Shown: piece by piece, positions 3,606-17,987 of the stretch
How the letters are laid out: each line of letters starts with the position of its first letter
Numbering within the stretch: position 1 is the first letter of the stretch
IMG/VR virus record: IMGVR_UViG_3300042451_000843
Coordinates: 1-35,021 of that record
Strand: one strand, 5' to 3'
Source of the DNA: a virus
DNA length: 35,021 nucleotides
Notes under the pieces: generated by a model
What the model was told of the DNA's origin: nothing
The model's database searches: none
Seen by the model: the letters and a program-made list of their open reading frames with translations, nothing else
Position numbers and translations under genes: made by a program

Positions 3606-6600
3606 TTATTTAATCATAAAATAGATAACTCGTCCTTCGTGTGTGTCTAATAATTTCATAAGTGATTCCGAAAGTGCAATACCATAACCATTTACATTAG
3701 GACCTATGTTAACGGGTCCCTCAGCCATAAATGGTACGTTTGTTAGTGTTCTATTTAGTGAATATAACGGTGCTATTGTTTTATCAGCACCATTATCAGG
3801 ATTTAAGAACCTAGTTGTACCCGTTCCAATGTGGTCTGGAGTTATATTACTTTGTAGTACAAATTTGGTCGAATAGAAATTCTGTACTTTTGAATACTTC
3901 TTAAGTTCTCCCCAAGATAATCCACCCTTACCGTCTTTATCTGTAACAACTTGGTTTTTAAACCTACTAACGATTGCCATATGGGTATCATCTTGAATTG
4001 GATACACTTCCGACCCCATTCTCGCAACCACCGCTCTATACCAAACCTCACCTTTATATTTAACTTTCTGAATGTATTTTTCACCGTTAAATCCATTATA
4101 TGGAATACCAAATGAAGAAACTCCAACTTCTTTTACTTCTTCTTCTCCCGATATTTTAATTGAACCCATATCGATAGTGAAATCACCTTTACCTGGAATT
4201 GATAAGGTTTTTTCTGTTGTTACTTTTCCAGAATTAATTGCATCTGTTGTTGTTTTAGCCTTTGTTAATAGTTTATCAAATAATGATTTGTAACTAGAAA
4301 CAAATGAATCTTCTGGGTCAGGTAAACTCGCTTGTGGTATTCTACTTCCTTTAAATGTTGTGGTTATTGAATTATTCCTAATATTATGACTAACCTCGGT
4401 AATCCAATATGAACCACGGAACATCGGGATGTTTTTTAAATAGAAGAACATTGTTGGTTGTATCATAACATTACCCATACAGGTAACCTCACAACTATAA
4501 GACGCTTGTCTATAGTAGTCAAACAAACCAATATCAACATTATGTGTTCCTGCTCCAGATTCGGACCTTGCCAAGTTTTCTAACACAACAAAAGATTCTG
4601 AAGTATTCTTAATTGTTGATTGGTCTAAGGTAACACCCTTAAACATACTTTGATTTTGGTCACCGAAACTAACTTCGAAGGCAACAACCTTATTTGATTT
4701 TGATAAATTTTCAACATCAAAAATTTTAGGTAACGTTACGATTAGTGGATTGTTATTAACATCTGATATGTTAAAACTGTCATCACTAAATCTGTAGTTT
4801 TTACTCATATCTGAAGGACGTTTAGATGATGGTCCTGCAAATTGAATAACAGTTTTAGGTGATGATTCTTGATAATCAACCTCTAAGAATGTTCCAAATA
4901 AATTACTTGCAACTTTATGTGATGGGGTAATTTTACTTCTTGTTGTTAAACCATTTCCATAAAAGTTAACATATGCCGGTAGTGTTCTCATATCAAACCC
5001 TGTACCTTGTATTAACATAGATATTGCGCTATATAAACTACCTTTATCATTTTTTGGATTGATGATTGAAATAAACCTATCCAAATTCAAATATGCTTTA
5101 TCTCCAATATCTTTATTGGCTTTGTCTAAGAATAGAAATTCTTCCATTAATAACCTTTGACCTATGGAGTTACCCGATGACCATTTATCATTGAAAGATT
5201 TGAAAAAATTATAAAGCTCAATTTTTAAGTTTCTATTGTTATAACCATCAACGAAATCAATCGCTCTAGTTTGTTCTTTATTTTTTAATTGACCAAATTT
5301 AGCAATCAATAAATTAATGAATAATTGATACCTTGGATTTGCTCCTGGTGTTGATGGGTAAGCAAAAGGTATTAGTCCCGTTCCAGGTACAAACGTAAAC
5401 GGTAATCCATTTAATATAGTTGTACTTATGTAATCTTGGAATGTCTTCTTAACATCAGTACCTCCCGATTGTCTATAACCTGCGTAAATTAATATTAACG
5501 GTCTAAATTTTAAAACGTTCTCTTCTGATAATTCGACATTATTTTTTACAAAGAAATCTAAATAATGTCCACTAATATCTTCCCCAATATAAAGTTCAAT
5601 GTATTTTCTATTTACAGATTGGGATGAATTATATCTGTCATATCTTAAAGAATTACCTGAAATATTTACAAACCCTTCAATTATATAAGGGTCCAATTCT
5701 TTTGGGTTACCTAATTTTATTTCCAATAAATTATCATAACCTACAACTTCATTGGTTAATTTAACTTTGTTTTGTGATTGTCTTTCTTTAATTAGACTAA
5801 CGATTTCTTCAAATGTCTTACCTTCATCTGATGTTTCTTTTTTAACTGAAACAAGAGCCTTTAATAAATCTTGGAAATTATCATATTTTACTTTAGGAAA
5901 TTTCTTATATGGATTTTCCTCGTTTAATTTTTCGGTTGCAAACTGTAAAAATATATCCTCGAATTGATCCAAAATTGCGGGACTGAATGTACCTATTAAA
6001 TCAATAACTTTTTTTGAATTACTTTCAATCGAAGAAACTCCGTCAATATTATTATTGTACTCGTTATATTTGAAAAATGTCTTACCACTATAATCTCCGT
6101 TGATATAGTTATCTTCCCATATCGTACTATAATATATTTGATTACCTCTATCAAATGAATCGGTATTAATAACCATTTCCGCAGTATTATTAAAATTAGC
6201 GTACTTGTTATCACCGTCACAAGGTAATACTGTATATCTTAAATCGGTCGGTTTGAATTTTGAGTTGTCAACAAATGAAGTCCAATATCTTAAACCATTT
6301 TCTTTACTTTTTCCTCTTGTTTTAATTGCACCATTTAATACGTTGGTAACATATGATGTGTTACCAGATAATACATCGTAATGGTTATATCCATTTACTA
6401 CTTGGTGAAATAACGCATCATAGAACGGATGTATACCAATATCAATACCATCATTAAAAGTTGCACCTGTTGGTATTGGGAACCCACCAATAAAATTAAA
6501 CCCATTAGGGAATAATGTAAAACCATTATCTGTTCTACCTGAATTAAAAAATAAATTAGCGTTAATGTTTGTTGTTTTTCCTGATGAATCAAGAAAACCA

Positions 6601-9479
6601 TCTAAAATATCAACACCATCTAATATTTTTCTCTTATATCTATGATATATCGAACCCCACTTCACGATTAAGTGGTATGGAACGTAGTGTGTTGAGGAAA
6701 TTTCTCTAAATAAAGACGAAACTCTAACCTCTGGTAAAGGTTTAGAAGTCGGTGTAACTTGTTTAGTGTCCGATTCAACAAACGTTATCTTATCTGTTAG
6801 TTCCACAAATGGTAATGAATTTATTAACAAATAAGCCGAACCCACATATTTTGAATATGGATTTGTTTTATAAAAATCACTAAATAATTGTTTATGAAAA
6901 TATGGTGTGTTTAATATATGTTCACTATGTTTTTCAAAGAAAATTGGCTGAGTGAATAAGTTAAATAATGTCTCATTTTTTTTATACCCATCTTTAATCC
7001 AAGAATATGTGGCAATTGGTGTTGTAATAAATCCTTTATCTTGTCTAACTTTAAACACACCTTTAAATTTAAAATCATTATCTGAAAATGGTTTACCATC
7101 GAGATAAGTTGTGTACAATGGTGAGTTAAATGGGTATATATTTTTTCTATACGGTTCGGCGGTATAGTTTAATAATTCATCATTAACTATTGAATATAGA
7201 TTTTCGTTTTTAGGTTTTTTAGTAATACTACTATCGTATTGTTTAATATCGAAAGGCGTATCTAATAAATCCTTAATATATTGTTGGGTTGGTATACTGT
7301 CTTTATAATATGGACTTCTTTCAAATGGTGACAACGCCTCCATATATTTTACTAAATCTTGAGGTGTTTTAATTGATGTGTTTAAAATATCAATAAGGTC
7401 TGGTTCTTCACTAATAACTTCCTTGATTGTTTCATATTCAATGTTAACCAACTCTTTAATTGTGTTGGAGCTAAATGAATCCACAAACGTCATAAATTTA
7501 ACTCTCTCGTGTAGTTCATATAAAAATGAAACTAAACTTCTGTCACTGTAAGGAATACTATTTGAAACTTCGAATAATGAACTAACCTGATTAACTTTAG
7601 AATCGTCCAAATCACTTTCAAATACATAATTGATATTATTTACACCACCTTCTTTTTCCGCATTAGGGTCACTTTTATTAGTCGATACCGAAATATATTC
7701 CTCAACAAATGCAACCTCGGGCCATAACAATGGGTCTCCAGATTGTAACTTTGATCTAAGTTCGGGTTCACCAGGATATGCAATTACTTTTTTCTTATCT
7801 GTTGGTAGTGTTCTTTTAATTTCTGGCCAAGGGTAAATGGAACCACCGATACTTTCATCGTCGAAACCTTTTAGTTTATTTTTTCTATCGTTAGCAACTT
7901 TGAAAGCATCTTCGTGTACTTCTTTCATTAATCTAACATACACCTCAGCGTTTGCCAATAACACCGCAAATAAATTTCTAACAGTAGGTTCGAACCCAAT
8001 TCCTAATCTTGGGTCTTTAACTACCTCGTTCATTTTTCTTTCTACCTCTCTCTCAATTTTTTGTTTTTGTTCAAAAAATGTACCCCTAACTTCCCCAAGG
8101 TCTTGCACTAACTTATCAATTGCAACAATATATTCCCCTCTTTCATTTCTATCATAATAGTTACCTGGATTTGTTATACTCTTTGATAGAAATGAAATAT
8201 TAACATTTATTGCTTTTGTATCCTTGGTATCTTTTTTCTGTAAACTATTATTATACGCCGCACTTGTTTTTAATCTCTCATTATAAAGAGTTATTAACCC
8301 TTCTAAGGTTTTATAATTATCTTTACCTACAATGTTTTTAGGGTCTGATTTGTCTTTATCACTAAGTGCATAATATCTAATAAATGTATTTAAACCTTCC
8401 GCATCTTTTCCAGTTACCTTATCTTCATAAGATGTCTTGTTTAAATGTCTACTTGCCCAGGTTTTAATTTCATTTTCATAGTTTGTTAAATCTTTGTCAT
8501 AATCTTGTAATCCCGCCAAAACTTTCATATCAATAACATTATTGAATATTGACTGTTCTAATATTTTATCTAACGTTTCAGCAATGGCACCGATTTCTCT
8601 AACTGTTTTAACAGGAAAATCTTGTGGTATTAATTTTTTTCGTTTCATTTCCGAATAAACGGAATTAAGAATTGCGTATCCTTTTGAAGATTTGTAAACT
8701 TTTTGAGTTGATTTACCTGTACTCTCGTTAAACTCTGCAGGTTTTGAAGATTCCTTAAGGAACATATATGGAGCGTTTAATATACCCTTTAAAGGTATAT
8801 CATTCATAAACGCAAATGACGACCCAACAAAAGATGTGGCAATTTCAAAATTACCATTTTGTTCGTTGTATCTTGAATTGAACTTTACTAAGTGTAATCT
8901 ATATCTAATCGCTTTACCATAGAATCCTTTAACCGTTAAATAAAATATTGGCCAAGGTATATGGAAGAAAGCTTGGTATGGTGAATTTTCTGGAGATTCA
9001 AATAAAGTCTTACCTCTAACGTCAATAAAATTAATATTGACTTGTGGTATGAAGTTTGCCCCCTTTACTAATATACTGATATTATCAATACCAAAAGATT
9101 GTCCTGTTTCGTCACTTTGATAAAACTGTTGGTCTATTGGTTTACCGTCTGCACCGTTTGTGGTTTTTTTAGGTGTACTTTCGAAATACGAATCCGTCCA
9201 TTCAGATGTAAAATCTCTGTCACCCGTTGCACTACTTAAAAAATTAAGTGTTCCTTTTGCTATGGTCTTTAAGGTATTCTTTTCGTCGTTTGATACAAGT
9301 GTTGACCTAGGAACAAGATCAGCTTCAAGATTAACAAACATAACCAAGTTTTCTTGTTTTATTCCTCTTGGTTCTATTTCACCGTTAACCACGACACTAT
9401 TAGGGTCGATGTACATCAGATTGTTCTGATCGACCTTAACTAATATTTTCTCACTATTCGATAAATCATTGTTCCCCAT
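3606..9479 (-). CDS. Giant baseplate hub protein (gp27-like core), 1957 aa
   Basis: A very large structural protein. Around residues 130-230 is a beta-rich segment (GIDNISILVKGANFIPQVNI, then HIPWPIFYLTVKGFYGKAIR). Around 1640-1720 is a region of the contractile-tail hub type (T4 gp27/P2 gpD), with SYSCEVTCMGNVMIQPTMFF and GSYWITEVSHNIRNNSITTT. The final 40 residues (EGPVNIGPNVNGYGIALSES) are loosely reminiscent of double-psi beta-barrel (RlpA-like) domains. No catalytic lysozyme motif was seen. T4 gp27 is about 390 aa, so most of this chain is extra mass. The ATG overlaps the end of the 108-aa gene by 14 bases, which implies translational coupling. It is the last gene of the 14545-3606 operon. 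Role as hub or wedge of the baseplate is an inference from the motifs and position. Confidence 0.7.
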   Translation of the reverse strand: MGNNDLSNSEKILVKVDQNNLMYIDPNSVVVNGEIEPRGIKQENLVMFVNLEADLVPRSTLVSNDEKNTLKTIAKGTLNFLSSATGDRDFTSEWTDSYFESTPKKTTNGADGKPIDQQFYQSDETGQSFGIDNISILVKGANFIPQVNINFIDVRGKTLFESPENSPYQAFFHIPWPIFYLTVKGFYGKAIRYRLHLVKFNSRYNEQNGNFEIATSFVGSSFAFMNDIPLKGILNAPYMFLKESSKPAEFNESTGKSTQKVYKSSKGYAILNSVYSEMKRKKLIPQDFPVKTVREIGAIAETLDKILEQSIFNNVIDMKVLAGLQDYDKDLTNYENEIKTWASRHLNKTSYEDKVTGKDAEGLNTFIRYYALSDKDKSDPKNIVGKDNYKTLEGLITLYNERLKTSAAYNNSLQKKDTKDTKAINVNISFLSKSITNPGNYYDRNERGEYIVAIDKLVQDLGEVRGTFFEQKQKIEREVERKMNEVVKDPRLGIGFEPTVRNLFAVLLANAEVYVRLMKEVHEDAFKVANDRKNKLKGFDDESIGGSIYPWPEIKRTLPTDKKKVIAYPGEPELRSKLQSGDPLLWPEVAFVEEYISVSTNKSDPNAEKEGGVNNINYVFESDLDDSKVNQVSSLFEVSNSIPYSDRSLVSFLYELHERVKFMTFVDSFSSNTIKELVNIEYETIKEVISEEPDLIDILNTSIKTPQDLVKYMEALSPFERSPYYKDSIPTQQYIKDLLDTPFDIKQYDSSITKKPKNENLYSIVNDELLNYTAEPYRKNIYPFNSPLYTTYLDGKPFSDNDFKFKGVFKVRQDKGFITTPIATYSWIKDGYKKNETLFNLFTQPIFFEKHSEHILNTPYFHKQLFSDFYKTNPYSKYVGSAYLLINSLPFVELTDKITFVESDTKQVTPTSKPLPEVRVSSLFREISSTHYVPYHLIVKWGSIYHRYKRKILDGVDILDGFLDSSGKTTNINANLFFNSGRTDNGFTLFPNGFNFIGGFPIPTGATFNDGIDIGIHPFYDALFHQVVNGYNHYDVLSGNTSYVTNVLNGAIKTRGKSKENGLRYWTSFVDNSKFKPTDLRYTVLPCDGDNKYANFNNTAEMVINTDSFDRGNQIYYSTIWEDNYINGDYSGKTFFKYNEYNNNIDGVSSIESNSKKVIDLIGTFSPAILDQFEDIFLQFATEKLNEENPYKKFPKVKYDNFQDLLKALVSVKKETSDEGKTFEEIVSLIKERQSQNKVKLTNEVVGYDNLLEIKLGNPKELDPYIIEGFVNISGNSLRYDRYNSSQSVNRKYIELYIGEDISGHYLDFFVKNNVELSEENVLKFRPLILIYAGYRQSGGTDVKKTFQDYISTTILNGLPFTFVPGTGLIPFAYPSTPGANPRYQLFINLLIAKFGQLKNKEQTRAIDFVDGYNNRNLKIELYNFFKSFNDKWSSGNSIGQRLLMEEFLFLDKANKDIGDKAYLNLDRFISIINPKNDKGSLYSAISMLIQGTGFDMRTLPAYVNFYGNGLTTRSKITPSHKVASNLFGTFLEVDYQESSPKTVIQFAGPSSKRPSDMSKNYRFSDDSFNISDVNNNPLIVTLPKIFDVENLSKSNKVVAFEVSFGDQNQSMFKGVTLDQSTIKNTSESFVVLENLARSESGAGTHNVDIGLFDYYRQASYSCEVTCMGNVMIQPTMFFYLKNIPMFRGSYWITEVSHNIRNNSITTTFKGSRIPQASLPDPEDSFVSSYKSLFDKLLTKAKTTTDAINSGKVTTEKTLSIPGKGDFTIDMGSIKISGEEEVKEVGVSSFGIPYNGFNGEKYIQKVKYKGEVWYRAVVARMGSEVYPIQDDTHMAIVSRFKNQVVTDKDGKGGLSWGELKKYSKVQNFYSTKFVLQSNITPDHIGTGTTRFLNPDNGADKTIAPLYSLNRTLTNVPFMAEGPVNIGPNVNGYGIALSESLMKLLDTHEGRVIYFMIK

Positions 9480-9792
9480 AATATAAATTATACAATTCTA
9501 CGCCTCTTTTATAATCTTGTAAAGAGGTAACCAAAGGAAAAGGAATTCTAAGGATAAAATTATCGGGGATTTCGAATTCATTTGTTCCCGCTAAAGCGTT
9601 GGCGGTCATAATCAACCACCCAAAAATTGGTGTTCCGTAAAACTCTTGTGATAATTTATCTAATCTATCTTTTCCGTTTTTATATTGGTGGTATTTGTCC
9701 GAACCCTTTATTGGGAGTTCGATACCTGGTACTATTCTAAAGTTACCATCTTCAATAAAAAGCTCATATCTGTTAAAATAACTACGTGACAT
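9466..9792 (-). CDS. Small baseplate protein, LysM/gp53-like
   Basis: A 108-aa protein. DRLDKLSQEFYGTPIFGWLI (about 43-62), then MTANALAGTNEFEIPDNFIL and RIPFP, follow the pattern of LysM-fold tail proteins and the T4 gp53 wedge family: a compact domain with a YG-P turn, aromatic stretch, N, and a closing beta strand. Such proteins join the tail tube or hub to the wedges. T4 gp53 is longer (about 196 aa). The gene overlaps both neighbours (11 bases upstream, 14 downstream), so it is made in register with the two giant baseplate proteins. Baseplate role is well supported by context. The exact T4 equivalence is not. Confidence 0.65.
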   Translation of the reverse strand: MSRSYFNRYELFIEDGNFRIVPGIELPIKGSDKYHQYKNGKDRLDKLSQEFYGTPIFGWLIMTANALAGTNEFEIPDNFILRIPFPLVTSLQDYKRGVELYNLYYGEQ

Positions 9793-12700
9793 CTCTATAA
9801 TAATTTAATTTACCACTTATAATTGGAACTTTCTTTGAATTTAAATTTGTGACTTGGTCTTTTACCGCAGAATCGGTTATTTCCTCTGTAGCGGTAACCT
9901 TGAAAGAAATAGGGTTATTATTTTTTCTTTCTTTCATCTTTTTAAACTTAAATTTTATATCTTCTGGTTCTTCAATAAAAGATGTTATTTTTTTATTTAA
10001 TTTCTCAACCGTGTTTTCGTCAAATATGGTTTTATCCACATTGAACACTTGCATTAGTGTATCTTTATTATATGTTCCAGTTGAACTTAATATCACTGAT
10101 AATAATGACCCTAAAATTTGAGAGTTTATCACTGGGTTAGTATAGTCAATTGTGTTATCTAACTTTTCGTAAAACTTACTTGTGTTATCCTTTATATAAT
10201 CAATACAACTTTTATACTCATCATAAATTAAATTAGATGTATAACCAGATAAAGTTGCTTTTATTGCTTTATCTTGAGATTCTAATTGTGCATCATATCC
10301 ATATTTTACCAAGAAATTAACCTTATCTAAAGCAATAATCAATTCATTTCTTCTTTCATCAAATCCCTTTACTTGTTTGTTAGAATCTAACGACCCAATT
10401 TTATCTTCAATTAATTTGGTGATATATGGTCTTAATAGTTCGTTAGCTTTTACTATCTTAGGTGCCGTTAACACTTTATCGAACGCAAACACCGAAGCAA
10501 TATCTTCAGTTTTTACAAAATCTAAAAGTCTCTTCTTTAATAAAGATACAAATCTTGAGTATGGTGTACCGTCAGGATATTTACCAATTAATTCAACTGT
10601 AGTTCCAGGAGTTAAAGATGTAGACGTGAAAATGTCTAAATTTTTTATTTTCCTATAATCCGGACTTAGTATTAATTTCATAATTAATGGTCCAAATTCT
10701 TTATTTAAAAGATTGTAACTAGGTTCAAATGATTCAAAATAAACTTTTGTTTTGTTAAAAACATCATCAACTAAATTGTCATATGTTAATGTTTCCGTAC
10801 CACTTCCAATATATTTTCCAGTATCTGGTTTTACACCTTCGGTAGCATTACTTGAATCTACAGCGGGTTCGGTTTGTTTTTGTATATCTTCTAAGAACCA
10901 TTTAGTAAACTCCTGTACTGTTCTACCACTTATTGATCCCACAGTTACTGTTGACCTTTCATCGTACATTTCAGTATTAGCGTAGAAGTTAGATGATAAC
11001 GCGTTTTGTAATCTTTCAACAGGTTTAGCTAATCCTTGTCCACCAATAAAGTTAACTTGTAATGATACGTTAGCTAACATAGGTTGTACGCCAATACCTT
11101 CTGGGTTTAAATCCCAAGTACTATCTTCAAATGTTATACTAATGTCTCTAATAATAATCTTAGAGTGATAAAAATCACCGACTCTTAGTACACAAATTGG
11201 TGGTGGTCCAAAAGTTGTATTTCTTGCGTTTAAATCCAATGCGTCTGATATACCTTTGATTGGTATTGTATCTCCAGGTCTAAGACATTGTTGTAAGAAT
11301 GTTAAACGTGCGTTTAATCCTTCAGGCGTCATAGAGTGAAACCCTGGATGGAAATATTTCAATTTTTCTTTTAATGAACCAAAAACAACTGGGTCTTTTT
11401 CTTCCAATATTTTAAAATAATAACACTCAGACAATGTCTTCATTATTATTCGTTTCATTGGGTCAATTGCTGGTTTCTTTCTACCTGATGGTGGTTTTTC
11501 TTCACCATCTGGAACTAATCTAGTTCTTGGTGGAATAACATCAGGTTTTGGTTTTTGAGGTTCCTGGGGTACGACAGCTTTCGTGTAATTAAATTCTACT
11601 TTAGATTGTCTACAACCAAAAGCAATTGCACTATTAACTTTTAATGATTTTGTTTTAAATTCATTATCGCTACAACTTTTATTTTCCTCATTTGCAACCT
11701 TTTCCCCTGCGTTAGTTGCTTTGAATATTAAATTACCTTCTTTATCTGCAAATCCTAAATCTTTGAACGAAACAACTCTTTCTAATTTAGTTGCTGTGGT
11801 TGGTGAACCTTTTGGTATATTCACCCAATTAGCTTTACTAACATCACCACCTAATTCTCTAACAATATCTTTAAAAATACTATGACTTCTTCTTATTGAT
11901 AATTTATAATTGTAAGTATCGTCGGCAACAGCGGAACAAGATGATAACGCGGTAATTGTAATTTCTTGTACCCTACCTTTTGTTATATCTTCTTTTAATG
12001 TTGCAATTTTTGTTTTATATTCGTTATAGTTTGTAACACCTTTATCTATTTGTTTTTGCAATAAATCTTTTTGTTCTGTAATCTTTGCCGCGTGAAGTGA
12101 CGGGTCTATTTTACCATCTGGTGTTCCTATTAATGTTTTTATATCTTTTCTCGCATTATCCGCAGATCCAGTTGTTCCGCTAAACGCTAAAGGCAATAAT
12201 GTATTTAAAGTTTCCTCCAATTCCGCCTTAGCTTTATCATTGTATGTGTTTCCTGTTTGACCAATTGATTGATTATATAATGTAGAATAATCGGCAGCGG
12301 AAGTATAATCTCCATCACCACTTGGTCTATCATTCGCAAACAATAATGAAGTTGTTAATTTAACTCCTTCATTTTTTGTTGGTTCAGTTTTAGGTGTTTC
12401 AACTGGTATTGGGTCAGACTCAACTCTAAATCTTTTAATTGATACTGGGTCAGATCCTCCTTCAAGATATTCTTTAATTTTTTTAGCGTCGTCAGCTGTA
12501 ATCGTGGTATATCTTTTAATTAAATCGTAAAAATCAATTTCTTCACAACCAGCAAAAAACGCATTAATGTAGTTATCAGATTCTTCGTCTGACATTCCTT
12601 CAAAATGTTCTCTAACTAATAAGTTTAATATACTTGGGTGGTCAACAACAACTTTAAATGATATTTGACCACTTCTCGATGTATTTTGATATGTGTAAAT

Positions 12701-14545
12701 TGGTTCGGGTCTACCTAAGAAACTATTTTCCTCCCATTTAGCACTATTTTGTTCCGATACCTTTAAATCATATGGTGGGAACCACATAACACGACCTCCA
12801 TTAGGTCCTCTCTCACAATATGGTAAATCTAAAACTGTAAATCCAGGTAGTGTCGATGCTTTCCAAGCTAAGTTTTCAATAGAAAACATATATTTTTTAG
12901 CGTAGAAAGCTTTACCATCAGCGTCGGCGCCAAATGGGTATTTATCTTTAATGTTTGTAGATTGACTAAAGTCTTTCTTACCATTTGACATTGGTGCTAT
13001 GTTTAAATTCCAAGGTGTGGACATAACACTATCATCATATTTTCTAACATTACCCGTTCTTTTCATAGTATCCGAGTAATTCATATATGACCTATCTTTT
13101 GTCCAAACTCTACAGAATTCAATTCCACTTTCTTCACCCGAATTGTTCTTAATGTATTTCACTGCAGAACCTCTTGACATCATAACGTCACCTTCTTTAA
13201 AGAAACGACTTGTTTGGTCAATCACATTTGCAACGTGAGACCTTGAAGTTGCTCCGTTTGTTGGTAATGTGTCTAAAATTTCCTGAGTGTACCCTAAAAT
13301 AGAGTCTTCTCTAAATTCAAATTTTGTAGATAAAGAATCTGAGTACGTTGATTGTTCACTATCCCATTCTTTATTATGGGTACCGATTTTATTTTTAGAG
13401 TTTTTACTAATCCAAGTTAAATTACCTGTAATTGTTCCTCCTTGTGATAAGTTTTTATCTCTTTGAAATAGTTCAGCTTGTGCTGGGTCAAACATTAAAC
13501 CCAAATAGTAACTACTTCTAACTTGTCTGTCATTAAAATCTCCCATCGCATATTTGACATCGTTTCCTCTGTCATCACCGATGTATGCAACACCTCTAGG
13601 TGCTTCGATACCTAATATATTTTTAACACCTTGAGCAACTGTATCAACAAAATTGAATATTTTTGATGAGTTTTGTGACCTTGCGGTTGTTGTATAGTTT
13701 GGTGCATATTTTGAATATGATAAATTATCATATAACGCATTTTTTTGACCTTCACCTAAGTATTCAATCATCAAGTCTGACGGTTTTCTACTTAATTTTG
13801 GTCTTCTTTGAATTCCTATTAAAGAACCTAACGCACCTGTAACATCCTGAAAAACTCTACCTAATTCAGTATTTGCTTGAGGTCTAATGTTAATTGGGTT
13901 TCTTGGGTTAGTAAGATAATCTCCTGGTATTTCAGACCAAGGAAACTCCACACCCGCAACCGTTTGTAAAAAATCAATTGCTTTACCTGGAAGGGTTTTA
14001 GCAACTGTAATCTTGTTATTTGGTTCGATTAATTGTTCTCTACCCGTAATTAAATTAATTGCGGTTGACGTATTACCGTTTAACGCATCTAAAATTCTTA
14101 ATCTACCGTTTGTTGCCGCCTCAATATTTCTATTAATTCTTGAAAAAACAGGACCGTTTGAGTTTAACCTCATATTCAAAGCTGCAAATTTCATTAACTC
14201 AGATTCAGTATCATAATTGTCTGTTGACATAATACTGATGAAGTTATAGTTACCCGAATTGAAATATGGGTATAATTGTAAATTTGCTCGTCTTGGGATG
14301 GTATCTAACGTCTCGGTGACAAAGTACTCTAACGGTTTAAATATGTTCGTATTTTGAGTCTGTAATAGGTCTGTAGTTCTATTGTTATCAACTTCAGGTA
14401 AATCCTTGTTCGCCATCTCACTTAGAGTCTGAACTGTATACGAACTTTGAGTAAACGTTTGAGGACCATTAGGTTTATTCAAAGTTTTACTCAAGATGTA
14501 ATCTCTAAATCTTTTTGTAGAATCAAAATCTAAGTAACTTGGCAT
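9782..14545 (-). CDS. Giant baseplate protein with OmpA-like segment, 1587 aa
   Basis: First gene of the coupled baseplate operon. Three landmarks are visible. Around residues 608-640 the segment GRPEPIYTYQNTSRSGQISF followed by KVVVDHPSIL is a tail/baseplate-type beta domain. Around 860-898 the segment SSCSAVADDTYNYKLSIRRS resembles the OmpA C-terminal peptidoglycan-binding motif (S...D..YN..LS.RR..S). Around 1070-1195 is a region with ICVLRVGDFYHSKIIIRDIS, WDLNPEGIGVQPMLANVSLQ and VNFIGGQGL that looks like a tube-baseplate junction domain (compare T4 gp48/gp54). A Pro/Lys-rich linker (about 985-1020) separates the OmpA-like part from the junction part. The ATG is 14 bases after a late octamer. 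Assignment as baseplate is good; the domain names are inference. Confidence 0.65.
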   Translation of the reverse strand: MPSYLDFDSTKRFRDYILSKTLNKPNGPQTFTQSSYTVQTLSEMANKDLPEVDNNRTTDLLQTQNTNIFKPLEYFVTETLDTIPRRANLQLYPYFNSGNYNFISIMSTDNYDTESELMKFAALNMRLNSNGPVFSRINRNIEAATNGRLRILDALNGNTSTAINLITGREQLIEPNNKITVAKTLPGKAIDFLQTVAGVEFPWSEIPGDYLTNPRNPINIRPQANTELGRVFQDVTGALGSLIGIQRRPKLSRKPSDLMIEYLGEGQKNALYDNLSYSKYAPNYTTTARSQNSSKIFNFVDTVAQGVKNILGIEAPRGVAYIGDDRGNDVKYAMGDFNDRQVRSSYYLGLMFDPAQAELFQRDKNLSQGGTITGNLTWISKNSKNKIGTHNKEWDSEQSTYSDSLSTKFEFREDSILGYTQEILDTLPTNGATSRSHVANVIDQTSRFFKEGDVMMSRGSAVKYIKNNSGEESGIEFCRVWTKDRSYMNYSDTMKRTGNVRKYDDSVMSTPWNLNIAPMSNGKKDFSQSTNIKDKYPFGADADGKAFYAKKYMFSIENLAWKASTLPGFTVLDLPYCERGPNGGRVMWFPPYDLKVSEQNSAKWEENSFLGRPEPIYTYQNTSRSGQISFKVVVDHPSILNLLVREHFEGMSDEESDNYINAFFAGCEEIDFYDLIKRYTTITADDAKKIKEYLEGGSDPVSIKRFRVESDPIPVETPKTEPTKNEGVKLTTSLLFANDRPSGDGDYTSAADYSTLYNQSIGQTGNTYNDKAKAELEETLNTLLPLAFSGTTGSADNARKDIKTLIGTPDGKIDPSLHAAKITEQKDLLQKQIDKGVTNYNEYKTKIATLKEDITKGRVQEITITALSSCSAVADDTYNYKLSIRRSHSIFKDIVRELGGDVSKANWVNIPKGSPTTATKLERVVSFKDLGFADKEGNLIFKATNAGEKVANEENKSCSDNEFKTKSLKVNSAIAFGCRQSKVEFNYTKAVVPQEPQKPKPDVIPPRTRLVPDGEEKPPSGRKKPAIDPMKRIIMKTLSECYYFKILEEKDPVVFGSLKEKLKYFHPGFHSMTPEGLNARLTFLQQCLRPGDTIPIKGISDALDLNARNTTFGPPPICVLRVGDFYHSKIIIRDISITFEDSTWDLNPEGIGVQPMLANVSLQVNFIGGQGLAKPVERLQNALSSNFYANTEMYDERSTVTVGSISGRTVQEFTKWFLEDIQKQTEPAVDSSNATEGVKPDTGKYIGSGTETLTYDNLVDDVFNKTKVYFESFEPSYNLLNKEFGPLIMKLILSPDYRKIKNLDIFTSTSLTPGTTVELIGKYPDGTPYSRFVSLLKKRLLDFVKTEDIASVFAFDKVLTAPKIVKANELLRPYITKLIEDKIGSLDSNKQVKGFDERRNELIIALDKVNFLVKYGYDAQLESQDKAIKATLSGYTSNLIYDEYKSCIDYIKDNTSKFYEKLDNTIDYTNPVINSQILGSLLSVILSSTGTYNKDTLMQVFNVDKTIFDENTVEKLNKKITSFIEEPEDIKFKFKKMKERKNNNPISFKVTATEEITDSAVKDQVTNLNSKKVPIISGKLNYYRDVT

Positions 14546-14584: not shown

Positions 14585-16486
14585 TTAAATCTTAAGAGAT
14601 AGATAATCATTAGGATTTAGAGGTTCCAAATTATTATTGATTATAATTTGTTTATTCTTGTCATATTTCCCACTATTTTGGATTTCTCTAAATTCAGCAG
14701 CGGTCATTGGTTTGTCTGTGTTAGATGTGTTATCTTGTTTTGGTGTTTCTTTAGGTTTGTTATCAACCTTTAATGCCTCTTGTTTTTTAGAAGATGCGCT
14801 AGCTTTTATTATTCCCGCTAAACCTTCTTCACTTTTTAATGCTGAGATTAGTTCCGCACCTTTGTTTCCTTTTTCACCTTTAGTTGCACCTTGTAGGTAT
14901 TTATTAGCTTCTTTTACAAGAACATCTGCAGCCTCTCCCGCTGGTCTACCTATACTTTTGGCAAATTGAACTTTTAATATTGTTAAAATTTCATTTGTTT
15001 TTAATACTAAGTTTTGAGTTTCAGTGAATTGGTCTCTTGCCACATCCTCAATACTCATTCCTTCTAATTTCTTTTGGTTTTCATTTAATATTCTAACTTG
15101 TTCTTCGGTTAATTTATCCAACGCGATTGATTGTGCACCTCCAAATTCTTTTGATATTGATGATACGTCTATACTCATCACCCCATCCTTCATTCTTGCG
15201 AGGTTGGTGATAAATTCTGTTTGTTTTTCGTCTAATTTTAATCCATTAGCCATTAACGCACTTGCAGCAGACGCTCTCTCGGCTGACGCTATTGCTCCCT
15301 TAGCTAATTCTTGATAACTAATACCTAATTCTTGAGCCATTGCTTTTGCTCTTCTTAAATTAATACCTTGAATTTCGAATTGTCCCGATGTACTATTATA
15401 TGCCGCTAATGAACCCGCAGCACCAATTAGAGCGTCTTGTAATCCCTCAACATTATTGGTGGCATCATACATCATTTTTAATGGATCTCCAAAGTCACCA
15501 ATTGCACCTCCTAATACTTGTAAATTAGCGGATAATGATATAGCACCTTCTGGGTCCATAACTTTGTCAGCAATTGTAAACACTTCATTCATACTCATTC
15601 TGAATTCAGTTGCCTTTTGTACCATTCTAGTTAAACCTTGTATACCATTTTGAAAACCATATTCATTTAATTTAGCAATATTTGTACGAATTTCATCAAC
15701 AGTTTTTTTACCGTTTAACCCTAAGGCTATTGAACTCTTACCCGCTTTATTAATTGCTTCTACAGTCTTTTCCGCTCCGATACCAACTTGTTCAAAGTTT
15801 GAAAATACTTTTGACATTTCTGTTAAGTCCCCAACAAAAGCTCTTGATGTTTGAGCGGTGTCCGCCACTACGGTTGAGTTTAATGTTGTAAATCTTCCCG
15901 TTTCTTCAGCGAGACCAACCATTAAGTCACTAACGTGTTCAAAACCATAACCCATTGAAACTACTCCAGGTAACGCATCAACTATTTGTTGTCTATAATT
16001 TTTTGATAAATCACCAGCAACCCCCAATTGTGAGTTAATTTGTGCTCTAAGTTCTACTTCTTTTGCTAAAATATCTTTAGATCCGTCAAATGCTGCACCT
16101 CCTAATTTTTTAATTAAAGCGGTTGTACCGTCAATGATTCCACCATTTTTACCAAAATATTGATTTAGTGTTTCTACACCGGCACCTAAAAAAGCTTTTA
16201 AATCGGTAATATCAGTTTTAGACCCCATAGTTAGTTTAGTGCTAAAAGACTGTATATCACCAATACCTTCCGTTATTTTACCTACAGCACCACTTGATGA
16301 GCTTCCAGTATTAGTATTTCCACTAGAATCGTTAGCTTTAGCATTTGGATCAATATTAAGATAATAGCTAAATTTATTAGCTAGAATTGCACCATCCGTT
16401 TTACCGAATTTTCTAACATAAACTTTTTCAAATTCGTCGGAACCTTTTCTAGCCGCTTTCGCTAATTCTATATCTGTTGAAGTCAT
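14585..16486 (-). CDS. Tail tape measure protein
   Basis: A 633-aa, largely helical, Ala/Gly/Lys-rich protein. It has no cysteine, a Ser/Gly/Asn-rich linker near residues 53-66, and long amphipathic stretches through about residue 540. The C-terminus is Lys/Asn-rich and polar. The region GAISLSANLQVLGGAIGDFG is typical of phage tape measure proteins, and the length is close to T4 gp29 (590 aa). Its position directly after tube and chaperone genes is the canonical place for the tape measure, which sets tail length inside the tube. The late octamer ends only 3 bases before the ATG, so a transcript from that promoter would have almost no leader. Otherwise translation would depend on read-through from the chaperone genes. 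Confidence 0.8.
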   Translation of the reverse strand: MTSTDIELAKAARKGSDEFEKVYVRKFGKTDGAILANKFSYYLNIDPNAKANDSSGNTNTGSSSSGAVGKITEGIGDIQSFSTKLTMGSKTDITDLKAFLGAGVETLNQYFGKNGGIIDGTTALIKKLGGAAFDGSKDILAKEVELRAQINSQLGVAGDLSKNYRQQIVDALPGVVSMGYGFEHVSDLMVGLAEETGRFTTLNSTVVADTAQTSRAFVGDLTEMSKVFSNFEQVGIGAEKTVEAINKAGKSSIALGLNGKKTVDEIRTNIAKLNEYGFQNGIQGLTRMVQKATEFRMSMNEVFTIADKVMDPEGAISLSANLQVLGGAIGDFGDPLKMMYDATNNVEGLQDALIGAAGSLAAYNSTSGQFEIQGINLRRAKAMAQELGISYQELAKGAIASAERASAASALMANGLKLDEKQTEFITNLARMKDGVMSIDVSSISKEFGGAQSIALDKLTEEQVRILNENQKKLEGMSIEDVARDQFTETQNLVLKTNEILTILKVQFAKSIGRPAGEAADVLVKEANKYLQGATKGEKGNKGAELISALKSEEGLAGIIKASASSKKQEALKVDNKPKETPKQDNTSNTDKPMTAAEFREIQNSGKYDKNKQIIINNNLEPLNPNDYLSLKI

Positions 16487-16499: not shown

Positions 16500-16649
16500 T
16501 TAAGTTGTGGTTTCTAATTCAATTAAATAATTGATATAGTATCTTCGTATGTATATCGGCATAGACATAATGTCTCCGTATGAAAACCCTCGTTTTACTA
16601 AAAATAAAATCTCATCTAATTGTCCTTTCTTATACTCCGTAGAAAGGGC
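16500..16649 (-). CDS. Tail assembly chaperone extension, probably made by +1 ribosomal frameshift
   Basis: An open frame, +1 to the upstream chaperone gene, runs from a TAG at 16679-16677 to TAA at 16502-16500 and has no good start of its own. After the run TTTTTTC (16656-16650) it encodes 49 residues, beginning ALSTEYKKGQLDEILFLVKR and continuing GFSYGDIMSMPIYIRRYYIN. The composition and the pattern 'helix, GFSY, hydrophobic, RRYYI' look like real protein. P-site tRNA-Phe moving from TTT to TTC before the CGC codon would fuse it to residue 243 of the upstream protein, giving about 292 aa. Order tube, frameshifted chaperone, tape measure matches the conserved G/GT arrangement of long-tailed phages. 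Internal initiation at ATG 16570 or TTG 16673 is the alternative. Confidence 0.65.
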   Translation of the reverse strand, partial: ALSTEYKKGQLDEILFLVKRGFSYGDIMSMPIYIRRYYINYLIELETTT

Positions 16650-17379
16650 GAAAAAACTCCACCCCAAAGCCAATTTCTACATTGACAAGTTCTCCTGACG
16701 GGGCGGTTACTGATTTTACTAAATCTAAATTTGGTTTATGTTCTTTTACGAATTTTCTGAACTCTTGGGAATCTTTGATTGGCATCTGTTCAACAAAATT
16801 GTGGATATTCATCAAATCTCTATTACCAGCAATGGATTTAATCATCATTTCTAATTGTTTGGTAACAACTGGGGCAACACCAATACCGTTCCAACTCTCT
16901 TCAATTTTTTCAATTTCTTTAAGTTGTTTTTTTGTTAAAAATTTAAATGTAATATCAACATTTGATTTTGGAAAATGGAATTTGAATTCTCCCATTTCAT
17001 CTGGAACTAATGTAAAGTCTTTAAATGTTATTTCACTTAAATCTACAACTCCAGTAAATTCTTCATCTGTTTTTGGGTCTCTTAAGTAAAAATTATATTC
17101 TGGACCAAATGATGTGTTTCTTAAAAATATAAGAATTGCACTCCTATCCTCATCCGCCAATTCTTCAATTGGTAGGTCTTTATCCAATATTTTTCTTTTC
17201 AACAATTCATCAATAACTGTGTTAGTTTTAAGTAAATTTTGAGAGGATAAAATATTTTCATCAGCCGCGGTTAAGTAAGCCACTCGAACTGATTTTTTCT
17301 TATTTGCGTAATGAATACCTTTAGAAGGAAGTTCAACTACGTCGTAAGCGATTGTTGGGTCTATTGCAAATTGTTCCAT
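16630..17379 (-). CDS. T4 gp26-family baseplate/tail assembly chaperone protein
   Basis: A 249-aa protein. Residues 15-24 (VELPSKGIHY) and 75-92 (ADEDRSAILIFLRNTSFG) followed by a beta segment fit the T4 baseplate protein family of gp26 (Pfam T4_baseplate). These proteins are soluble hub or assembly factors thought to chaperone the tape measure. The C-terminus FGVEFFRPFYGV overlaps the +1 frame described at 16500-16649. The gene lies between tube and tape measure, as tail chaperones do. No TATTTATA octamer is present in its 119-base upstream gap, which instead holds a terminator ending 42 bases before the ATG. Expression may depend on read-through or on an unrecognised promoter. Confidence 0.75.
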   Translation of the reverse strand: MEQFAIDPTIAYDVVELPSKGIHYANKKKSVRVAYLTAADENILSSQNLLKTNTVIDELLKRKILDKDLPIEELADEDRSAILIFLRNTSFGPEYNFYLRDPKTDEEFTGVVDLSEITFKDFTLVPDEMGEFKFHFPKSNVDITFKFLTKKQLKEIEKIEESWNGIGVAPVVTKQLEMMIKSIAGNRDLMNIHNFVEQMPIKDSQEFRKFVKEHKPNLDLVKSVTAPSGELVNVEIGFGVEFFRPFYGV

Positions 17380-17498: not shown

Positions 17499-17987
17499 TT
17501 AGTATACTTGGATACATCTATCCATTCTCAATGTACATTGAATTGTTGCGATTGCATCGTTGTTGTAATCTAAATCACCGAAGTTTAAGTCAGTGATAAA
17601 GGTACCTTGAAGAATCCACTTTTCAACCACAACTCCTGTTGGGTCTAACATTTCAAGTTCGATATCTTTCTTATATCCAGCAGCATATCCCATTCTACCT
17701 GTTACTGATTCTGCGTGTAAACGGAACCATTCCATTAGAGCTTGTGATGCTGAAGGACCGATTGGGTCTTTAAAAGTAACTTGAAGAGCTTCCCAAGTAA
17801 ATCTACCCGCAACGTAAGTTGAAGTGTTTAAGAAAGGAATCTCAACCGAGTTAATTTTTGCACTAGGTCTTTTAGCTGAAGTAACGTACCATTCGTTGAT
17901 ACCCAATGATGAAGGGAATCTAACAATGAATCGGTTAACTCTTTTCGGTTCGTAAGGAACCGGCATTTTCATTAGTAAATCTGCCAT
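17499..17987 (-). CDS. Tail tube protein, gp19-like
   Basis: A 162-aa protein, essentially the length of T4 gp19 (163 aa). The pattern of the Hcp/gp19 tube fold is clear: RVNRFIVRFPSSLGINEWYV at residues 17-36, then the domain SVEIPFLNTSTYVAGRFTWE, and QVTFKDPIGPSASQALMEWF. Hexameric rings of it form the inner tube through which DNA passes. The gene is monocistronic: late octamer 33 bases upstream, strong terminator downstream. The leader CTTAACAAATACAAA has no Shine-Dalgarno. Independent high-level expression is expected for a major virion protein. Confidence 0.92.
   Translation of the reverse strand: MADLLMKMPVPYEPKRVNRFIVRFPSSLGINEWYVTSAKRPSAKINSVEIPFLNTSTYVAGRFTWEALQVTFKDPIGPSASQALMEWFRLHAESVTGRMGYAAGYKKDIELEMLDPTGVVVEKWILQGTFITDLNFGDLDYNNDAIATIQCTLRMDRCIQVY

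Follow-up and report, generated by a model that had tools for sequence, protein, structure and literature searches.

The question raised by this locus is how a phage tail assembly chaperone gene that ends in one reading frame comes to be overlapped by a second, protein-like frame without a good start of its own, and whether the two are joined during translation, as the first-pass annotation had proposed in reading the junction as a programmed +1 frameshift. The window, by which we mean the whole 35,021-nucleotide stretch of viral DNA that was analysed, carries the gene on its minus strand at 16630–17379 (−), where the 0 frame encodes a 249-amino-acid protein that closes with VEFFRPFYGV and the stop codon TAA at 16632–16630. 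In profile searches this protein matched PF12322 (T4_baseplate; E = 5.1e-8, 33.3 bits against a curated cut-off of 24.5) and phrog_150 of PHROGs (E = 4.3e-9), and PF12322 was also matched by 27 of 29 aligned relatives. By these profile matches the gene belongs to the T4 gp26/gp51 family. The main open reading frames scanned in the window, which is a 35-kb fragment, contained no second phrog_150 match. A DIX-domain match (E = 0.0078) lay below its cut-off and was disregarded.

The gene sits where a tail assembly chaperone would be expected, and the order of tube, chaperone and tape measure given in the first-pass annotation held up. Directly upstream, at 17499–17987 (−), is a tail tube gene of the gp19 family (PF06841, E = 3e-7; phrog_4542, E = 1e-27), itself preceded by a tail sheath gene recognized through Pfam and PHROGs matches. 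Downstream, a 633-amino-acid gene at 14585–16486 (−) starts 13 nt past the stop codon of the second frame; it has no credible family match in Pfam or PHROGs, and its tape-measure label comes from where it lies and from a single weak match (E = 2e-5) to the ORF in the corresponding place in Microcystis phage Mel-JY01. The placement of the chaperone gene between a tube gene and a gene in the tape-measure position is common to phages immuto, SP-15 and LIS04. Two very large genes, at 3606–9479 (1957 amino acids) and 9782–14545 (1587 amino acids), adjoin the tail module; neither has a PHROGs match, and the latter also lacks a credible Pfam match.

Close to its end the 0 frame reads TTT TTT CGC at 16656–16648 (−). 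The putative slip site within it, TTT TTT C at 16650–16656 (−), comprises the codons of F242 and F243 followed by the C of CGC that would be skipped. From 16676 to a stop codon at 16502–16500 the +1 frame is uninterrupted and encodes ALSTEYKKGQLDEILFLVKRGFSYGDIMSMPIYIRRYYINYLIELETTT, and its first start-like codon is a TTG at 16673–16671. Skipping the C at 16650 gives GCC CTT TCT and so on, that is, a +1-frame tail of 49 residues plus stop TAA at 16500–16649 (−), so that the predicted long form (TAC-NC) would have 243 + 49 = 292 amino acids, next to the 249 of the short form (TAC-N). Between 16630 and 16650 (−) the DNA can be decoded in both frames, as RPFYGV and stop in the 0 frame and as ALSTEYK in the +1 frame. 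The coordinates assigned to this arrangement in the first-pass annotation were all correct, and the length of about 292 amino acids and the junction VEFF-ALSTEYK that it gave for the predicted fused product agree with the conceptual translation. The Arg codon CGC at 16648–16650 (−), which would occupy the A site during a slip, is rare in the phage, accounting for 3 of 368 Arg codons in its other main ORFs, and this rarity fits a slow A site. The codon is CGC or CGT in all window-clade loci, a conservation that is not explained by rarity alone because the third base is also constrained by the +1-frame Ala codon.

A scan of IMG/VR yielded 80 homologous loci from many metagenomes, the window clade, 79 of which could be read through the 0-frame stop; one of these runs off the end of its contig and was left out of the frame count, leaving 78 that were testable downstream. 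The +1 frame was open, and the tail kept, in all 78, while the −1 frame was open in none; a shuffled stretch of equal length was open in about 2% of trials. The DNA across the junction, GGGGTNGARTTTTTTCGYCCTTTCTAYGG, is nearly invariant among these homologues, and the slip site is invariant in the 35 non-redundant sequences. Among the same 35, the mean pairwise variation at 0-frame codon positions 1, 2 and 3 was 0.205, 0.127 and 0.408 in the body of the gene and 0.442, 0.195 and 0.087 past the 0-frame stop. The most variable codon position thus flips at the junction, indicating that the coding frame changes to +1.

Between the slip site and the 0-frame stop both frames are constrained, so that selection appears to act on the short product as well as on the long one. 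Indeed, even the four-fold degenerate sites of the +1 frame (GCN CTN TCN) are fixed here, since they coincide with the first positions of 0-frame Pro, Phe and Tyr codons. The codons TTT TTT, CCT and TTC are invariant in the 35 non-redundant sequences, and the other conserved Phe columns mix TTT and TTC. Retention of the +1 frame and of TTTTTTC, with synonymous variation suppressed around the site, is what the first-pass annotation had suggested looking for in homologues, and its reading of a programmed +1 frameshift is supported by these comparisons. It had also named a sequencing error at the T6 run as a possible cause of the joined frames. We rejected such an error; the run is common to all the homologous contigs, which are independent of one another, and the same design recurs in distant phages with other sequences.

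The tail might instead be a separate small gene expressed by independent initiation or reinitiation from its own start, which is how it is annotated in Rhodothermus phage RM378 and in Mel-JY01. The in-frame TTG of the window could serve such a gene, as could an ATG that lies inside the tail in some homologues. However, in 13 of the 78 window-clade loci the first ATG, GTG or TTG of the +1 frame, if any, lies over 30 nt beyond the 0-frame stop, and the same is true of 28 of 75 and 9 of 29 distant loci found in two further scans (37 of 104), so that the conserved tail is well under way before any start could be used. In many homologues, moreover, a stop closes the +1 frame shortly before the slip site, as in SG*SFFALS. 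Conservation of the tail begins at the very first codon past the slip, which independent initiation leaves unexplained, as it does the invariance of the slip site itself. A stand-alone tail gene with its own start, the finding that the first-pass annotation had said would count against it, occurs in none of the window-clade homologues, and its view that the tail lacks a good start is strengthened by several homologues with no start codon in the +1 frame at all. We regard a separate gene as very improbable.

The two further IMG/VR scans showed that the arrangement extends well beyond close relatives, the +1 frame being open in 75 of 79 and 29 of 32 readable loci. One gene with a +1 tail is also present in several named phages, all annotated without a frameshift, where the slip sites read TTT CTT TGG (Flavobacterium phage immuto), TTT TTT TGG (Mel-JY01 and RM378), TTT TTT CAC (Bacillus phage SP-15), TTT TTT AGT (Listeria phage LIS04) and TTC TTT CGT (phage GXN1). 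With few exceptions, the distant relatives have TTT or CTT as the slip codon and T or C as the next base, further sites being TTT-TGG, TTT-TAC and TTT-CGT, as well as CTT-TGG, which resembles the RF2 site. The predicted frameshift is therefore not peculiar to this phage, which refines the first-pass annotation; by sequence it is typical of a large T4-like clade. Searched alone against the named phages by tblastn, the window tail gave no match. The long form is absent from the public records of immuto, Mel-JY01, SP-15, LIS04 and RM378, where the tail is unannotated or appears as a small hypothetical gene. In an SP-15-like subgroup (loci L192, L195, L197, L201 and L202), TTA TTT/TTC AAT CCC AGT takes the place of TTT-Y, and the +1 shift may there have moved to CCC-A.

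These diverse sites bear on the direction of the slip. The long form could also be reached by a −2 slippage, the Phe-tRNA moving back two bases within TTTTTT, which would add a further Phe to give EFFF-ALSTEYK, a product of 293 amino acids and a junction peptide VEFFFALSTEYK. Slippage by −2 has been reported for the tail chaperone of phage Mu, re-pairing would be perfect within the six Ts, and the TTTTTTC of the window clade is equally compatible with it; the first TTT, too, never varies in the window clade and hardly does in the set of relatives termed A2. In contrast, at TTC TTT CGT, TTC TTT TAC, TTC TTT CAT and TTT CTT TGG a −2 slip would have to move a tRNA from TTT to TCT or from CTT to TTC, whereas +1 re-pairing at these sites is cognate or RF2-like. 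The presence in some relatives of TTC as the first codon or CTT as the second, where +1 re-pairs well and −2 does not (as in TTC TTT CGT and TTT CTT TGG), thus argues against −2 as the general mechanism, and the rare or slow A-site codons also fit +1. We consider −2 slippage an unlikely, minor alternative that refines the +1 reading of the first-pass annotation. The same relatives weigh against slippage by the polymerase on the T6 run, which would produce mRNAs one base short or two bases longer: most members do carry a run of six or seven Ts, but several relatives, with TTC TTT CGT or TTT CTT TGG, have no T run longer than three at the site, and six Ts is short for polymerase slippage. Transcriptional slippage is accordingly the least credible of the explanations, with next to no chance of being correct.

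Taken together, the sequence comparisons make it very likely that a conserved programmed frameshift, most probably +1, yields a short and a long tail assembly chaperone from this one gene. From them we infer the slippage itself, its +1 rather than −2 direction, its efficiency and the roles of the products in assembly, as follows. Most ribosomes would stop at 16630 and release the 249-amino-acid short form. A fraction would slip at TTT-TTT-C, where the P-site Phe-tRNA would move from TTT to the overlapping TTC one base downstream, with the rare CGC waiting in the A site. The slipped ribosomes would continue in the +1 frame to make the 292-amino-acid long form with its 49-residue C-terminal domain. 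The lambda G/GT system suggests, by analogy, a division of labour: coating of the tape measure protein for the short form, and recruitment of tube subunits for the long form, the minor product.

The sequence GGGGTGGAG at 16657–16665 (−), directly upstream of the slip site, is a candidate stimulator, possibly Shine-Dalgarno-like or forming one side of a hairpin. All 35 non-redundant homologues have GGG for its Gly at 16665–16663, whereas elsewhere Gly is mostly encoded by GGT and GGA. The window clade keeps the consensus of this segment, GGGGTNGAR (16665–16657), without variation, and base pairing with CGCCC immediately after the slip site would be possible. A consensus hairpin of the form GGGG...CCC around the slip site was unsupported, there being almost no varying pairs and no covariation, and the GGGG element was rejected as a general Shine-Dalgarno-like part of the signal, as it is invariant only in the window clade. 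Downstream RNA structure was not significant as a stimulator (z = 0.20). Some 35–40 nt upstream of the slip site, TCA GGA GA at 16698–16690, which contains the Shine-Dalgarno-like AGGAGA, hardly varies within the window clade.

In the cyanophages, which together with KVP40 form the sister clade, the homologous tail lies in the −1 frame, open in 79 of 80 loci. All 76 non-redundant sequences carry the heptamer T TTT TTC unchanged, and the most variable codon position changes to a −1 pattern. Phage KVP40 is arranged likewise, and the entry for it likens the small ORF to the last 40 residues of T4 gp51. The heptamer and the conserved −1 tail in cyanophages and KVP40 look like a −1 programmed frameshift. 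In the records of these phages (loci L208–L287, L091 and L092) the −1 tail appears as a small gene of its own, labelled 'baseplate hub assembly catalyst'. T4 itself has two PF12322 genes, the short gp26 without the C-terminal segment and the long gp51 with it, and the statement in the first-pass annotation that T4 is not known to frameshift here is correct. The tails are connected by significant comparisons of the window with the A2 set (E = 1.4e-12), of the A2 set with the cyanophage −1 tails (E = 3.5e-8) and of the cyanophages with the gp51 C-terminus (E = 3.7e-7); compared directly, the window tails and the gp51 C-terminus were not significantly similar (hhalign E = 0.027, probability 2%). 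By these steps, through the intermediates, the window tail appears homologous to the C-terminus of gp51.

In an unrooted tree of 65 short forms, the −1 and T4 proteins fall on one side of a branch with support of 99/98, and the +1 proteins fall on the other. The two exceptions are members of the +1 side with a −1-frame tail, locus L149 (TTC TTC TGG) and the huge phage L086 (GGT TTT TTC TTC), which are possibly local switches of frameshift direction. We think it fairly likely that the recoding site at the two terminal Phe codons of the short form is a long-lived feature of the family, which would be used as +1 on TTT-TTT-Y in the large clade that includes this phage and as −1 on T-TTT-TTC in cyanophages and KVP40, and would be replaced by two genes in T4, the same TTTTTTC being used in opposite directions through a change of phase.

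Frameshifts in tail chaperone genes are already known, most of them −1 and some +1. In the Vandenendeviridae the shift is −1 on GTTTTT (PMC12846349), and the training data of PRFect (PMC10274946), drawn from actinobacteriophages and nearly all from chaperone genes, hold 350 forward and 2,368 backward cases, the forward cases indicating that +1 chaperone shifts exist elsewhere. For at least some T4-like phages, short and long chaperones have been described as arising by another route (Vladimirov, Gautam and Davidson 2022, doi 10.1016/j.virol.2021.11.003, as cited in PMC10274946 and PMC12846349), and PMC12846349 cites the same work for poly-T −1 signals in T4-like phages. The literature searched, in which the primary study of T4-like chaperones was represented by citations, described neither a +1 class in the gp26/gp51 family nor clades that use TTTTTTC in opposite directions, which is weak evidence of absence.

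The locus can be set beside several known systems. Like lambda G/GT and the Vandenendeviridae, it has one gene between tube and tape measure that would give a short and a long chaperone through a shift shortly before the short frame ends; their shift, however, is −1 on a site of the XXXYYYZ type, whereas here it would be +1, the −1 frame being closed throughout the 78 loci. With T4 gp26 and gp51 it shares PF12322, found in both, and the extra C-terminal segment of gp51 resembles the tail (aligned with FSYGDIMSMPIYIRRYYINYLIELE), but in T4 each form has a full gene to itself, where here one gene and a frameshift would supply both. The gp26 of the cyanophages (Kyanoviridae) and KVP40 is of the same family, with a homologous tail immediately following and an identical TTTTTTC, yet these seven bases are read there in the phase N TTT TTC, a classic −1 heptamer with a −1 tail, and here as TTT TTT C with a +1 tail. 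A mechanistic parallel in the +1 direction is the CUU UGA site of prfB (RF2), where a P-site tRNA likewise slips +1 onto an overlapping UUU/UUC while the A site is slow; CTT TGG occurs in immuto and a relative. Unlike prfB, these sites have a sense codon in the A site (CGC, UGG or UAC) instead of a stop, the window having UUU-C with CGC. Moreover, prfB has a Shine-Dalgarno sequence 3 nt upstream, whereas here there is no proven one, GGGGTGGAG being upstream only in the window clade, and no autoregulation is implied.

The data suggest that frameshifting is widespread in the gp26/gp51 family and that the two genes of T4 are one special outcome. The family would be a natural setting in which to compare +1 with −1 recoding at homologous codons, with a +1 site as simple as TTT-TTT-C and the rare codon CGC. 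Annotations would also be corrected for immuto, SP-15, LIS04, Mel-JY01 and RM378, whose records omit the long form or reduce it to a separate hypothetical gene.

Given the chaperone function proposed for the product, we also considered its predicted fold, modelling the short form only. The AlphaFold model, of good confidence (pLDDT 87.5), retrieved gp26-like proteins of many T4-like phages with Foldseek; as evidence for the fold, Foldseek alone was not significant. When the model was compared with 989 solved chains by VIA-align, the top two were 3klu (YqbN; Z = 5.1, rmsd 4.0, 84 aligned residues), which we take to be a phage tail chaperone of the XkdN-like family, and 2ob9 (the HK97 tail assembly chaperone; Z = 5.0, rmsd 3.5, 80 aligned residues). 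A Z of 5 alone is modest; the next-best chain was well below, with a Z of 2.7. That both best chains are phage tail chaperones supports the chaperone reading, and the predicted fold of the short form may resemble that of solved tail assembly chaperones.
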